64,000 nt of DNA, taken from Actinomycetota bacterium (GTDB lineage Bacteria; Actinomycetota; Thermoleophilia; Gaiellales; Gaiellaceae). The DNA is taken from positions 1 through 64,000 of the forward strand of contig PLBK01000012.1 of NCBI GenBank assembly GCA_003134505.1, read 5' to 3'. Shown piece by piece: positions 19,438 through 25,765 of this stretch (positions are counted from its first letter, which is position 1; each line of letters opens with the position of its first letter). The position numbers and the translations under genes were made by a program. The notes beneath the pieces are model-generated. The model saw nothing but the letters and a program-made list of their open reading frames with translations. It made no database searches and was not told the origin of the DNA.

Positions 19438-19719
19438 TCAGGGCTTGCTGCCGCGGCGCTCGACTTCGAGCAGTCCGCGGCGGAACGCGATCGCGACCGC
19501 GTGCGTCCTCGTCCTCGCCTGCATCTTCATCCGCAGCGCGTGCAGACGGCTCCGCATGGTCTTCGCCGAGATCGACAGCTTCTCGGCCATCTCCGCGTCG
19601 GTGAGGCCGTCCGCCATCAGGGTGAGGAGCTCGAGCTCGCGCTGGGACGGCTTGGGCGGCTCGGCCAGCGCGGCCACGACCTCGTCGTAGCCGGCCTGCT
19701 TCTCGCGATCGGTTGCCAT
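19438..19719 (-). CDS. LuxR-type helix-turn-helix regulator, small
   Basis: 93 residues from ATG 19719. The C-terminal two thirds is a GerE/LuxR DNA-binding domain (LELLTLMADGLTDAEMAEKL, SISAKTMRSRLHALRMKM). There is no receiver or sensor domain, so it would be a stand-alone regulator or depend on a partner. It converges on the GT39 gene and lies upstream of, and divergent to, the two tandem secreted proteins, which makes those plausible targets. Confidence 0.85.
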   Translation of the reverse strand: MATDREKQAGYDEVVAALAEPPKPSQRELELLTLMADGLTDAEMAEKLSISAKTMRSRLHALRMKMQARTRTHAVAIAFRRGLLEVERRGSKP

Positions 19720-19819
19720 CGTCTCCGTTATCGGCCGCAAGCGGCCGCAGCTACAGCGCCAACGGTGGGGGACGTCCGTCGTCCCCGAAAGGGGCACTGG
19801 TCAGAGGCGGCAGACCCGC

Positions 19820-19862: not shown

Positions 19863-21077
19863 GTGGGGATCAAGCGCACGCTGATGCTGGCGATGCTGCT
19901 CGCGACCGGGGCCGTGCTCGCAACGGGCACGGCCTCCGCGGTCGACTCGCAGAACCCGAACGGGCATTTCCTCGGCGCGCTCGAGCCGGGCGCGGCGGGC
20001 GGCGCCGTCGACGCGGCCGGCAGCCCGAACCTCAGCTGGCACGGCGGGCCGGTGATGCACTCGACGAGCGTCTACTCGGTCTACTGGGCCCCGCCCGGGT
20101 ACGGCTACCAGGCCGGCTACAGCGCCACGATCGACAAGTACTTCCAGGACGTGGCCACCGACAGCGGCAAGACGTCGAACGTCTATGCCATCGACAAGCA
20201 GTACACCGACGGGAGCGGCCCGGCGCTGTACGCCTCGACCTTCACGGGCTCGCTGACCGACACGGATCCGTATCCGGCGAGCGGCTGCTCGGACGCGCCC
20301 TTCACGCCGGTCTGTCTCACGGACAGCCAGCTCCAGAGCGAGCTGAAGAGCTTCGTCGCCGCCAAGGGCCTGCCGCGGGGCATGTCGACGATCTACTTCG
20401 TGTTCTTCCCGATCGGCGTCGGGAGCTGCTTCGACTCGACGTCCACGTCGTGCACGTACAGCCAGTACTGCGCCTACCACGGCTGGATCGGGAGCGGCGA
20501 CGCGAGCACGATCATCTACGCAAACATGCCGTACGCCGACCAGCCGAGCGCGGGCTCGAACTGCGACATCGAGTCGTCCCCGAACGGGAACGACGCGGAC
20601 GCGACGATCAACGTCACGAGCCACGAGCACAACGAGGCGATCACCGACCCGCTCGGCAACGCCTGGTACGACTCGGGCGGCTACGAGATCGGCGACAAGT
20701 GCGCCTGGACGTTCGGCCAGCAGCTCGGATCGACGCAGTACGGCTCCTACAACCAGGCGATCTCGAGCGGCAAGTACGAGCTGCAGCAGGAGTGGAGCAA
20801 CCTGCTCTCGAGCTGCGCGCTCACTGCCGTGATCCTGGCGCCGCAGATCACGAGCTTCTCGCCGGGCCACGGCCGCGCCGGGACGCTCATCACCCTGACC
20901 GGGAAGAACCTGCTCGGCGCCACGCAGGCGCAGTTGCGCGGGGTGTCCACGAGCTTCACCGTCGTCTCGACCACAAGGGTCCAGGCACGGGTTCCAGCCG
21001 GTGTCGCGGGCCTGGCCAAGTGGACGGTGACCACGCCCGGCGGGACGGCGACGAGCGCCTACTTCTGCGCTTGCTGA
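19863..21077 (+). CDS. Secreted SHEHNEAITDP-family protein with IPT/TIG domain, copy 1
   Basis: 404 residues. Signal peptide 1-26, then a region of about 300 residues with paired cysteines, and the block TSHEHNEAITDPLGNAWYD followed by GYEIGDKCAW. The two His, Glu and Asp residues look like a metal site, but it is not the HExxH zincin motif. Residues about 325-398 form an IPT/TIG Ig-like domain (ITSFSPGHGRAGTLITLTG). The protein ends in FCAC. The layout recalls plant EXORDIUM-like proteins in its SHE...TDP block; function unknown. GTG start with Shine-Dalgarno GAAAGGGGAG. The next gene is its paralogue. Confidence 0.82.
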   Translation: MGIKRTLMLAMLLATGAVLATGTASAVDSQNPNGHFLGALEPGAAGGAVDAAGSPNLSWHGGPVMHSTSVYSVYWAPPGYGYQAGYSATIDKYFQDVATDSGKTSNVYAIDKQYTDGSGPALYASTFTGSLTDTDPYPASGCSDAPFTPVCLTDSQLQSELKSFVAAKGLPRGMSTIYFVFFPIGVGSCFDSTSTSCTYSQYCAYHGWIGSGDASTIIYANMPYADQPSAGSNCDIESSPNGNDADATINVTSHEHNEAITDPLGNAWYDSGGYEIGDKCAWTFGQQLGSTQYGSYNQAISSGKYELQQEWSNLLSSCALTAVILAPQITSFSPGHGRAGTLITLTGKNLLGATQAQLRGVSTSFTVVSTTRVQARVPAGVAGLAKWTVTTPGGTATSAYFCAC

Positions 21078-21125
21078 GCCGGGTGGCCGGGCGGCCACGG
21101 CTTCTCGACGCACGTCCCGAAAGCC

Positions 21126-21134
21126 CTTAGAGTC
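21126..21134 (+). promoter_or_regulatory. CTTAGAGTC promoter-like box upstream of 21179 gene
   Basis: Second occurrence of the shared string, 45 bases before the ATG. It suggests each paralogue has its own promoter. Confidence 0.4.
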
Positions 21135-21178
21135 CAGGGGCTGTTCTCTCCGCCCTTCTATGAAAGGTGCCCGCAGCC

Positions 21179-22399
21179 ATGAAGCGACTGCTCTTCGCCA
21201 TGCTGCTCGCGATCGCGGCCGTTGCCGCGCTCGCGGGCCAGCTCCAGTCGGCGCACGGATCGAGCACCTCGGTCCCGAGCCATATCGCCGGTGTCGTCCC
21301 GACCGTGGGTCACGTCAGGCCCGATGACAACTGCCCCCCGAGCGGATGCGGCTCCGGGGATCTCCTGTACCACGGCGGCCCGACGATGACCACGAACAAG
21401 ACCTACGCGATCTACTGGGTGCCGGGCGGCTACTCGATCGCGCCGGGGTACGACACGACGATCAACCAGTTCTTCACCGACGTCGCTCACGACAGCGGCA
21501 TGGGAACGAACGTGTACGCCGTCGACACGCAGTACTCGGGCATCCAGTACGCCTCGACCGTCGGCAGCTCCGTCACCGACACGAATGCGTTCCCTGCGAG
21601 CGGCTGTCCGCTCTACAACGGCCTCACGGAGTGCCTGACCGACGCGCAGATCATCGCGGAGATCAACAACGTGATCACCGCTCAGGGCTGGACGCGGAAC
21701 GGAACGAACATGTTCTTCATGTTCACGCCTGAAAACGTCGGGAGCTGCTTCGACGCGGGCGGAGGCTCGTGCGCCTACACGGCGTACTGCGCCTACCACG
21801 GGTACACCCCGAGCGGTGCGATCTACGCCAACCAGCCGTATGCGTTCACACCGAGCTGCGACGTCGGCCAGTACCCGAACGGCATCTCGAACCAGGCCGA
21901 TCCGACGATCAACGTGGTCAGCCACGAGCACAACGAGGCGATCACGGATCCGCAGGTGAACATCAACAGCGCCTGGTACGACGCCGCCGGTTACGAGATC
22001 GGCGACAAGTGCGTCTACACGTTCGGCACGCGCTCCGGTTCGAACGGCTCGGAGTACTCGAACACGATCAACGGGCACCACTACTGGCTTCAGGAGGAGT
22101 ACTCGAACGCCAGCCACTCCTGCGTCCAGACGTACTCCGTCACCGGGGGCGGCGGCAAGCCCATCGTCTCGAGCTTCTCGCCCTCGCGGGGCCGGGCGGG
22201 AACCGCGGTCACGCTGACCGGGCAGAACTTCGGGAACGCGACCCAGGTGCTCCTGCGTTCGACGAGCGCGGTGATCATCAGCAAGACGTCGACGACGATC
22301 AAGACGAAGGTCCCGACCGGCGTCACCGGGCTCGCCAAGTGGACGGTGAAGAATCCGGCCGGATCCGGTACGGACAACTCGTTCTTCTGCGCCTGCTAG
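21179..22399 (+). CDS. Secreted SHEHNEAITDP-family protein with IPT/TIG domain, copy 2
   Basis: 406 residues, colinear with copy 1 from signal peptide to the last residue. It keeps HGGPTMTTNKTYAIYWVPGG, FPASGC, VGSCFD, CAYTAYCAYHG, VSHEHNEAITDP, the GYEIGDKC block, the IPT/TIG domain (VSSFSPSRGRAGTAVTLTG) and the terminal FCAC. The middle is diverged, so the duplication is not recent. ATG 21179 is chosen over GTG 21167 because GAAAGG is then correctly spaced. A strong terminator hairpin follows at 22413-22445. Confidence 0.82.
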   Translation: MKRLLFAMLLAIAAVAALAGQLQSAHGSSTSVPSHIAGVVPTVGHVRPDDNCPPSGCGSGDLLYHGGPTMTTNKTYAIYWVPGGYSIAPGYDTTINQFFTDVAHDSGMGTNVYAVDTQYSGIQYASTVGSSVTDTNAFPASGCPLYNGLTECLTDAQIIAEINNVITAQGWTRNGTNMFFMFTPENVGSCFDAGGGSCAYTAYCAYHGYTPSGAIYANQPYAFTPSCDVGQYPNGISNQADPTINVVSHEHNEAITDPQVNINSAWYDAAGYEIGDKCVYTFGTRSGSNGSEYSNTINGHHYWLQEEYSNASHSCVQTYSVTGGGGKPIVSSFSPSRGRAGTAVTLTGQNFGNATQVLLRSTSAVIISKTSTTIKTKVPTGVTGLAKWTVKNPAGSGTDNSFFCAC

Positions 22400-22889: not shown

Positions 22890-23180
22890 TTGGCCGTCGG
22901 CGAGAGCCCGCGCTGGTGGGCGGTCCGCCGCGCGGGGAGCAGCAAGCCGGCCACGTATCGCTGCCCGTTCTGCGGGCGGCTGCTGCACGCCATGAGCGAG
23001 CACGTCCTGATCGCGCCGGAGGGTGATTCGAGCCGTCGGCGCCACGCTCACGCCGCCTGTGTCGCCCGGGCCCGGGCCGTCGGCACGCTGCTGACCCTCG
23101 ACGACTGGCGCGCTGCCCAGGGCCTGAGCCCGCGGCGGCGGCTCAGGCTGCCCTGGCGGCGCCGACCGGCTACGGAGTGA
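22890..23180 (+). CDS. Small zinc-ribbon-like protein
   Basis: 96 residues from TTG 22890. It carries YRCPFCGRLLHAMSEHVLIAP and a later HAHAACVARARA, so a C-x2-C pair with a downstream His/Cys pair could bind zinc. The rest is Arg-rich. It starts one base after the SnoaL-like stop, which indicates translational coupling. It overlaps the end of the convergent PQQ-repeat gene by 11 bases. Not a family I can name. Confidence 0.68.
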   Translation: MAVGESPRWWAVRRAGSSKPATYRCPFCGRLLHAMSEHVLIAPEGDSSRRRHAHAACVARARAVGTLLTLDDWRAAQGLSPRRRLRLPWRRRPATE

Positions 23181-24618
23181 ACGCGTAGAGCTTGTTGTCC
23201 CAGGACGGGACGAGCAGCATGCCGTTGACGACGATCGGCGCCGCGTAGAGCCCGCCGCCGATGGTCGCGCCGCTCGACCACAGCTGGGCGCCGGTCGCGG
23301 CGTTGAACGCCCGTTCCGTGTTGCCGTAGCCGTCCCCGTAGTAGACGACGCCGTTGGCGACCGTCGGCGGCGAGTCGCTCGTGTAGTTCGGCCCGACGGT
23401 CTGCTGCCAGGCGAGCGACAGCTGGCAGTTGCTGCCGGCGTGGAGCGCGATGAGCCCATGGAAGTACGTGCCCGTGTTCGAGTCCGAGTTGTTCGAGATG
23501 TAGAGCATGTTCGTCTTCGGGCTCCAGGCCGGGATGCCGTTGAACTGGTAGTCGTTCACGTCGGCGATCTGGAAGCGCTGCGTGTAGCCCGCGCTCAGGC
23601 TTCCTTCGTTGTAGACGACGAACACGCCCGTCTTGTTCTTCGCCGCCACCTGCTGCGTCGGGCATCCGGACGGCCGGTAGAGGATCGGGGTCGCGCCGAA
23701 GTCGACGTCGCCGCCCGTGAGCCCGGGGTAGTTCGCGCCGAGGACGTTCAGCGACGCGTCGAGCTCGACCACGTCCTCGGAGTAGGAGTAGGACTCGGGG
23801 TTCGTGAGCGCGTTGCCGGTCGCGACGAACACGTGGCCGTTCGCCGGATCGATCGAGGCACCGCCCGGGCCCCAGATCCCGCCGCCGTCCACGCCCGGTG
23901 TCGCCGGATAGAAGCTCTTGACGATCGTGCGCGAAGCGATGCTGATCTCCGAGACACGGCCCTTGTAGGGCGCGAAGTCGCAATGGCTCGCCACGACGAC
24001 GTAGAGATTCCCGGCCCGCTCGTTGATGCCCCCGTAGACGTGGTCGTGTGCCGGCTGGAAGACGTTGCGCACGGGCCAGCCGACCTGCTCCTGGCCCGTC
24101 GCAAGAGCGAGCGCGTGCACGGAGCCGTCCCCGCCTGCCACGTACACGACGGCCACCCCGGGGCGGCTGCGGTCGATGACGCCGGCGCCCCCGATCCCGA
24201 ACACCCCGTCCGGCATGTCGCCGCAGCCCGTCTGGATCGAGCCGAGACTCTTGTGCCACAGCACCTGCCCCGTCGCGGCGTCGAGCGCGTAGAAGTCTCC
24301 GTGCTCCGTGCCCTCGTAGACGACGTTCTTCGTCCCGCGTCCCGGGATGACGACTCCGGCGGCCTCGACCGGCTGCGCGATCATCACGTCGCCGAGGTTC
24401 GCCGTCCAGCGGACGTGGAGCGACGCGGCGTTCGACGTGCCGATCGTCGTCTCGGCTGGGTTGTAGCCGGTGCGCTGGAGGTCGTAGCCGTACGTCGTCC
24501 AACTGATCCCCGCTCCGAGCGGATTGTCGTCCGCGCCCGCTGCCGGCAGGAGGACGAGCGCAACGGACGTCGCAGCGAGCAGCAGCGCGGTGAGAAGGCG
24601 AAGACGGGAACCGGGCAT
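23170..24618 (-). CDS. Secreted PQQ-type beta-propeller protein
   Basis: 482 residues. Signal peptide 1-29 (LLTALLLAATSVALVLLPAAGA), then propeller blades of the quinoprotein dehydrogenase kind (YALDAATGQVLWHK, VHALALATGQEQVGW, AFNAATGAQLWSSG, LLVPSWDNKLYAFTP). Tryptophan-docking motifs are present, but the calcium- and PQQ-binding residues of true dehydrogenases cannot be confirmed, so it may be a BamB-like scaffold. ATG 24618 follows GAGGAGA. It is divergent from pfkA. Confidence 0.82.
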   Translation of the reverse strand: MPGSRLRLLTALLLAATSVALVLLPAAGADDNPLGAGISWTTYGYDLQRTGYNPAETTIGTSNAASLHVRWTANLGDVMIAQPVEAAGVVIPGRGTKNVVYEGTEHGDFYALDAATGQVLWHKSLGSIQTGCGDMPDGVFGIGGAGVIDRSRPGVAVVYVAGGDGSVHALALATGQEQVGWPVRNVFQPAHDHVYGGINERAGNLYVVVASHCDFAPYKGRVSEISIASRTIVKSFYPATPGVDGGGIWGPGGASIDPANGHVFVATGNALTNPESYSYSEDVVELDASLNVLGANYPGLTGGDVDFGATPILYRPSGCPTQQVAAKNKTGVFVVYNEGSLSAGYTQRFQIADVNDYQFNGIPAWSPKTNMLYISNNSDSNTGTYFHGLIALHAGSNCQLSLAWQQTVGPNYTSDSPPTVANGVVYYGDGYGNTERAFNAATGAQLWSSGATIGGGLYAAPIVVNGMLLVPSWDNKLYAFTP

Positions 24619-24721
24619 CGAGTCTCCTCGGGACGGGTGGGCCGAGTGTACGGAGACGATCCGACGACGGTCAATCGCGCGTTCGAGTACCTGACCACGG
24701 CGCGCCGCGGTAGCTATCGTC

Positions 24722-25765
24722 ATGCCCGTGCGCGTGGGAGTGCTGACCGGCGGAGGCGACTGCCCCGGCCTGAACGCGGTCATCCGCGCAGTGGCGCGCC
24801 GGTCGCTCGACCGCGGCCACGACGTCGTCGGCGTCCGCGCAGGGTGGCGGGGGCTGATCGAGGACCAGCTCGAGCCGCTCGGGCCGCGGGAGATCTCGGG
24901 GATCCTCCCCCGTGGCGGCACGATCATCGGGACGAGCCGCACCAACCCGTACAAGGTCGAGGACGGCGTGCGCCGAGTGCTGGCGAACTTCGCGCAGCAT
25001 CTCGACGCCCTGGTCGCCATCGGCGGCGAGGACACGCTGGGCGTCGCCGCGCTGCTCTACGAGGAGGAGCAGTTCCCGGTCGTCGGCGTCCCGAAGACGA
25101 TCGACAACGACCTCTCCGGCACCGACTACACCTTCGGGTTCGACACGGCGGTCTCGATCTGCACGGAGGCGATCGATCGCCTGCACACGACGGCGGAGTC
25201 GCACAACCGCGTGATGGTGGTCGAGGTGATGGGACGCCACACCGGCTGGATCGCGGTCATGAGCGGCATCGCCGGCGGCGCCGACGTGATCCTGATCCCC
25301 GAGCATCCGCTCACCGTCGAGGAGACGTGCGGCGAGATCGAGAAGCGGCACCGGCGCGGCAAGGACTTCTCGATCGTGGTCGTGAGCGAGGGCTACAAGC
25401 TGACCTATGCCTCCGGCGAGCAGCGAGAGGTGACGCAGGAGGCGGCGCTCGACCAGTTCGGCCACGTGCGCCTGGGCGGGATCGGCGAGTCGCTGGCCCG
25501 GGAGATCGAGCACCGCACCGGCTTCGAGACCCGCGTGACCGTGCTCGGGCACGTCCAGCGCGGCGGCACCCCGACCGCCCGCGACCGCGTGCTCGCCACG
25601 CGCTTCGGTCTGGCGGCCGCGGATCTCGCCCAGGAGGGCCGCTTCGGCCGGATGGTGGCGCTGCGCGGCAACGCGATCGTCGACATCCCGCTGGCGGAAG
25701 CGGTGGCCGAGCTCAAGACCGTGCCCGAGGACTGGTACGACGTAGCCAAAGCCTTCTTCGGTTAG
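24722..25765 (+). CDS. pfkA: 6-phosphofructokinase, probably pyrophosphate-dependent
   Basis: 347 residues, full length for the PfkA family, which phosphorylates fructose 6-phosphate in glycolysis. The phosphoryl-donor site reads GGEDT at 101-105 with Asp104, and GVPKTIDND has Lys125. In ATP enzymes these positions are usually Gly. Asp plus Lys is the known signature of pyrophosphate-dependent actinobacterial enzymes such as that of Amycolatopsis methanolica, so a reversible PPi enzyme is likely. The catalytic Asp is in TIDND. Start at ATG 24722, with TAGCTA 5 nt upstream. A double-hairpin repeat follows the stop. Confidence 0.9.
   Translation: MPVRVGVLTGGGDCPGLNAVIRAVARRSLDRGHDVVGVRAGWRGLIEDQLEPLGPREISGILPRGGTIIGTSRTNPYKVEDGVRRVLANFAQHLDALVAIGGEDTLGVAALLYEEEQFPVVGVPKTIDNDLSGTDYTFGFDTAVSICTEAIDRLHTTAESHNRVMVVEVMGRHTGWIAVMSGIAGGADVILIPEHPLTVEETCGEIEKRHRRGKDFSIVVVSEGYKLTYASGEQREVTQEAALDQFGHVRLGGIGESLAREIEHRTGFETRVTVLGHVQRGGTPTARDRVLATRFGLAAADLAQEGRFGRMVALRGNAIVDIPLAEAVAELKTVPEDWYDVAKAFFG

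Follow-up and report, generated by a model that had tools for sequence, protein, structure and literature searches.

The two neighbouring, probably secreted proteins encoded at positions 19863 to 22399 of the window (the whole 64,000-nucleotide stretch of DNA that was analysed) share a core that is a remote branch of the EXORDIUM family, Pfam PF04674 (Phi_1, also called phosphate-induced protein 1; IPR006766), homologous over the whole core. This core carries a nearly invariant HExxE...D motif, and on balance it is probably a zincin-like metallohydrolase of the PF04674 superfamily, secreted and rich in disulfides, whose HExxE...D site is non-canonical. Here, we lay out the evidence for the family assignment, for the motif and for the fold, and then weigh this reading against its alternatives.

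The original prediction described two colinear, related secreted proteins with several elements in common. Indeed, both open reading frames are present on the plus strand, their products have signal-peptide-like N-termini (read by eye), and the BLASTP alignment between the two runs through to a common FCAC terminus, with about 51% identity in the core. The shared SHEHNEAITDP and GYEIGDKC blocks, Cys blocks, TIG domain and FCAC end are likewise all found in both proteins, and the features are arranged as follows.

19863..21077, plus strand: protein 1, 404 aa from a GTG start, with signal peptide, EXORDIUM-related core, TIG domain and FCAC end
20022..20828, plus strand: core domain of protein 1 (PF04674-related, zincin-like model)
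20619..20651, plus strand: SHEHNEAITDP of protein 1 (HExxExxTD, putative metal site)
20679..20702, plus strand: GYEIGDKC of protein 1 (ExxDxC; E, D and C invariant)
20841..21050, plus strand: IPT/TIG domain of protein 1 (PF01833, E=5.1e-8)
21063..21074, plus strand: FCAC end of protein 1, read from the sequence
21167..22399, plus strand: protein 2, built like protein 1; 410 aa when read from GTG, 406 aa when read from the ATG at 21179
21350..22129, plus strand: core domain of protein 2
21920..21952, plus strand: SHEHNEAITDP of protein 2
21989..22012, plus strand: GYEIGDKC of protein 2
22160..22378, plus strand: IPT/TIG domain of protein 2 (PF01833, E=3.4e-11)
22385..22396, plus strand: FCAC end of protein 2, read from the sequence

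Residues are given below in core numbering, in which core residue n is protein 1 residue n+53 and the core comprises about 265 residues.

By themselves, the window proteins lie below the threshold of the family model. The core of protein 1 scores 20 bits (E=5e-4) against PF04674, under the Pfam cut-off of 25 bits, and the Pfam scan of protein 2 gave no match to this model. When the class was searched with the Pfam model, however, four relatives (L079, L080, L081 and L086) exceeded the cut-off, their matches coinciding in place with those of the family profile, and one of these above-cut-off matches spans positions 2-274 of 276. In the reverse direction, clear Phi_1 members are matched by the profile of the window family, and when the window family is aligned with such members profile to profile (hhalign), the probability is 99.8% with E=2.3e-29 over 236 columns. 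The above-cut-off members and the profile-profile match across the domain together identify the window family as a remote branch of PF04674, and the comparison with EXORDIUM that had been proposed from the sequence was thus apt. Searching the PDB by sequence, with protein 2 or the profiles A2 and A3 as the query, returned nothing useful; matches to NagJ (E=0.13) cover the N-terminal third only and were taken as chance.

The window family resembles other Phi_1 proteins in being probably secreted and in C150, H153, W215 and C227, all of which are favoured by the Pfam model as well. It differs in that HExxE and D209 are (nearly) invariant in the window family, whereas the Pfam model gives them no weight, and in that the window proteins have extra cysteine pairs and a C-terminal TIG domain.

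Over about 110 aligned rows, H153, H201, E202, E205, E222, D225 and C227 are 100% conserved and D209 and W215 are 99% conserved; mean column identity in a 67-row family alignment is 24%. Seven core residues that are invariant over this many rows exclude a chance resemblance. Two of the positions within SHEHNE, H203 (50%) and N204 (41%), vary, so that the true signature is HExxExxTD...W...ExxDxC. The His/Glu/Asp block had been put forward as a candidate metal site distinct from the HExxH motif, and both parts of that proposal hold: the motif reads HExxExxTD over the roughly 110 rows, and the block, being invariant and lying on a zincin-like model, is the best candidate available for a putative metal site. 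CLCA proteins have been described as metalloproteases that depend on zinc and share a conserved HEXXE motif, and for CLCA1 HEXXE is named as the motif of the protease (PMC6851300). The analogy is one of motif alone; CLCA proteins have a VWA domain, and no CLCA_N match appeared in Pfam scans of the family proteins.

AlphaFold models of the two proteins, built from alignments of 14-16 relatives (with L002 and L004 from the window's own genome in the protein 2 set, A2, and only sequences of the window and of related loci in the protein 1 set, A4), reached pLDDT 79.5 and pTM 0.85 for protein 1 and pLDDT 69.5 for protein 2. In the protein 1 model, HExxE lies on a helix (residues 192-208) that follows a series of strand-helix-strand-helix-strands, the order expected in the N-terminal part of metzincins. 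When the models were compared with the PDB by Foldseek, both retrieved almost exclusively zincins (fragilysin, ADAM17/TACE, ADAM10, ADAMTS and Amuc_1438), and the top two matches in a viral library were annotated metalloproteases. The PDB scores are weak, with best E values of about 2e-3 to 6e-3, none reaching 0.001, and TM below 0.4 with large rmsd, which indicates a match to only part of the fold. A comparison with metalloprotease folds, also proposed from the sequence, has proved worthwhile in that zincins lead the lists of both models, but these weak scores make "zincin-like" a consistent lead and not a result.

With that qualification, the models suggest that the core has a zincin-like fold. 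Zincins such as ADAM17/TACE, fragilysin and ADAMTS are its top structural neighbours, and they share the placement of the HE on a helix following a mixed sheet. Unlike them, the window family has HExxE in place of HExxH and neither the HxxGxxH/D continuation nor a conserved Met-turn. Over the roughly 110 rows, the metzincin motif HExxHxxG/NxxH/D is absent, with both the second His and the third metzincin ligand missing, and no methionine is more than 80% conserved in the core, nor is one conserved at the place of a Met-turn. Lacking the methionine and the continuation, the family is not filed as a metzincin.

What might such a domain do? What we infer about metal identity, ligands, catalysis, substrate and disulfides of the two proteins can be put together as follows. 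Both proteins would be exported as disulfide-stabilised domains of the EXORDIUM superfamily, in which the H-E-x-x-E-x-x-T-D helix is predicted to bind one metal ion, most likely zinc. The predicted ligands are H201 and E205, with a third provided by D209 or by one of H153, E222 and D225, and E202 is the putative general base. The core would then act extracellularly as a putative metallohydrolase, most likely a peptidase, while the TIG would serve as an exchangeable C-terminal accessory domain, probably for adhesion or spacing, and the FCAC end would be a decoration of the window pair, most likely a local disulfide. Among the gene neighbours of the pair, none indicates proteolysis.

The strongest alternative, a possible one to which we give the lesser weight, is that the core is a non-catalytic EXORDIUM-type extracellular binder of cell-wall or environmental polymers, in which the conserved block holds a structural zinc or calcium ion. 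An acidic ligand set of E205, D209, E222 and D225 would suit calcium as well, and the accessory domains found in the family (TIG, PKD and ricin-B lectin) are of the adhesion type. Moreover, the best-studied relatives, the plant EXO proteins, are apoplastic, and two papers on them (PMC2661892, PMC3691544) report no enzymatic activity. It is difficult to see, however, why a structural site would need E202, which sits where the catalytic base would be, to be as invariant as the ligand candidates. In addition, the Pfam model tolerates losing the block, which argues that the block is dispensable for the fold of the wider family. We favour the metallohydrolase over the binder with a structural metal.

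The tolerance of the Pfam model was seen in an indirect probe, for which residues of the bacterial Phi_1 protein L010 were changed and the variants scored against PF04674. The unchanged protein scored 108.5 bits, and the version with S, L, G and N in place of the H, E, E and D of the motif 111.7; made singly, the changes of H to S, of E to L and of E to G each shifted the score by 0.7 bits or less, and D to N gained 3.7. When an 18-residue segment of L010 was swapped for a plant-like one, the score rose to 119.5. Changes at C150, H153, W215 or C227, by contrast, cost 3-6 bits. Judged by these scores, HExxE...D is not treated by the Pfam model as a feature of the family, and the simplest reading is that plant EXORDIUM members would lack it.

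How does this bear on EXORDIUM itself, whose molecular mode of action has been called unknown and which has been described as without similarity to other known domains (PMC3691544)? Since the Pfam model prefers a plant-like segment without these residues, plant EXORDIUM may be a metal-less derivative. More broadly, we would suggest, tentatively and as a conjecture that could easily prove wrong, that the ancestors of the EXORDIUM/Phi_1 family were secreted, zincin-like enzymes of bacteria with a non-canonical HExxE...D metal site and that the plant growth regulators are a metal-less, non-catalytic branch. If true, this would supply a structural and mechanistic frame for EXORDIUM. Such an idea of EXORDIUM function can be tested directly, given a large bacterial branch whose invariant HExxE...D lies on a zincin-like model. 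The interest of the finding thereby shifts to the core and away from the CxC tail.

The tail had attracted attention because both window proteins end in FCAC, and a covalent or metal anchor was envisaged. A survey of tails covered 99 distinct family members, 6 of which were cut by contig or locus ends. The CxC terminus occurs in 2 of the 93 complete members, namely the window proteins, and in none of the other 91, which include three further family members from the window's genome (on contigs C40 and C15, and a more remote one on C47). The CxC end is thus not conserved in the family, the outcome that the original prediction had itself held to speak against a special role. Across the entire assembly, the two window ORFs are the only ones to finish in FCxC and a stop, the other two matches to the pattern having TGG and no stop. 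Further last TIG domains from this genome have YFWVL (the C40 paralogue) and NFMHL at the equivalent place.

The cysteine counts point in the same direction. A count of exactly 8 core cysteines is seen in several relatives without the tail. Protein 1 adds the tail pair to these 8, and protein 2 has a further, N-terminal pair as well (56, 61). Two of the eight are jointly missing from the C40 paralogue, as would be expected for a disulfide pair. Since the tail adds one pair to an even set, the CxC end is probably a local decoration and not an anchor, a local disulfide being the least demanding reading. That the terminal CxC is a functional anchor, covalently or metal-linked to the cell surface or joining the two proteins to each other, is in our view improbable. 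It would draw on the fact that both proteins end in FCAC even though their cores are not sisters, so that either selection has retained the end or one neighbour has acquired it from the other; but the end is missing from every other complete member, same-genome TIG domains terminate differently, and the cysteine count is even with or without the tail pair, so that no free thiol is required. The tree places the protein 2 core with the C40 paralogue (support 100/97) and not with protein 1, and the shared tail may therefore have been copied between the neighbouring genes. A different kind of terminal cysteine, single and conserved, is found in three relatives with long C-terminal parts (L047, L051 and L082), which finish in GTIVAT[LFY]C.

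Finally, the view that the core is a new family without relation to any known one, in line with its first description as unrecognised, can draw on the fact that neither window protein passes a Pfam or NCBIfam family cut-off outside the TIG-like part (the NCBIfam search gave TIG-like repeat models or trivial matches only), but it is refuted by the whole-domain match to PF04674 and the above-cut-off members, and we regard it as scarcely tenable.

The genes that adjoin the pair on either side are both on the opposite strand.

19438..19797, minus strand: LuxR-type HTH gene (GerE, E=7.9e-11), a neighbour divergent from the pair
23170-25035, minus strand: PQQ-type beta-propeller protein (PF13360/PF01011)

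The LuxR-type gene had been pointed out from the sequence, and the GerE match confirms it. Its linkage is not conserved in relatives, where one other weak match lies upstream of a single relative (recorded as both L023 and L035). Other neighbours identified by Pfam encode a PMT-type membrane protein, an NlpC/P60 hydrolase, a NAGPA-like protein and a SnoaL-like protein, and none of the pair's neighbours has a clear functional link to it. No conserved neighbourhood was evident in a quick ORF listing for a few relatives, a listing that is crude in GC-rich DNA.

The family is far from confined to the window. The family profile finds it in 76 of 399 genomes of the class, and a broader profile in 19 of 397 genomes drawn from the phylum; named matches include Chloroflexota and one MAG labelled Proteobacteria. 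As of 2009, a single bacterial homologue of EXORDIUM had been reported (PMC2661892). The C-terminal domain of family members may be TIG, PKD, ricin-B lectin or none, small bacterial members of the L013 and L014 type having no extra domain, and these accessory domains are therefore interchangeable modules.

A secreted Phi_1/EXORDIUM protein with the sequence HELTETVTDP (PF04674, E=2.7e-35) is also encoded on two IMG/VR phage contigs, L089 (4794-5732) and L092, along with a UvsX-like recombinase (phrog_97, E=5.7e-67) and an ssDNA-binding protein (phrog_1192). These contigs had no match among INPHARED phage records, and a PHROGs search gave no match for the phage Phi_1 protein or for the window proteins. 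Core relatives occur in addition on plasmid records from Bradyrhizobium elkanii (NZ_CP126030.1) and Gemmatirosa kalamazoonensis (NZ_CP007130.1). Adjacent pairs of family members, like the pair in the window, recur at G604:C289, G485:C219, G451:C182, G446:C9, G280:C42 and G014:C36.
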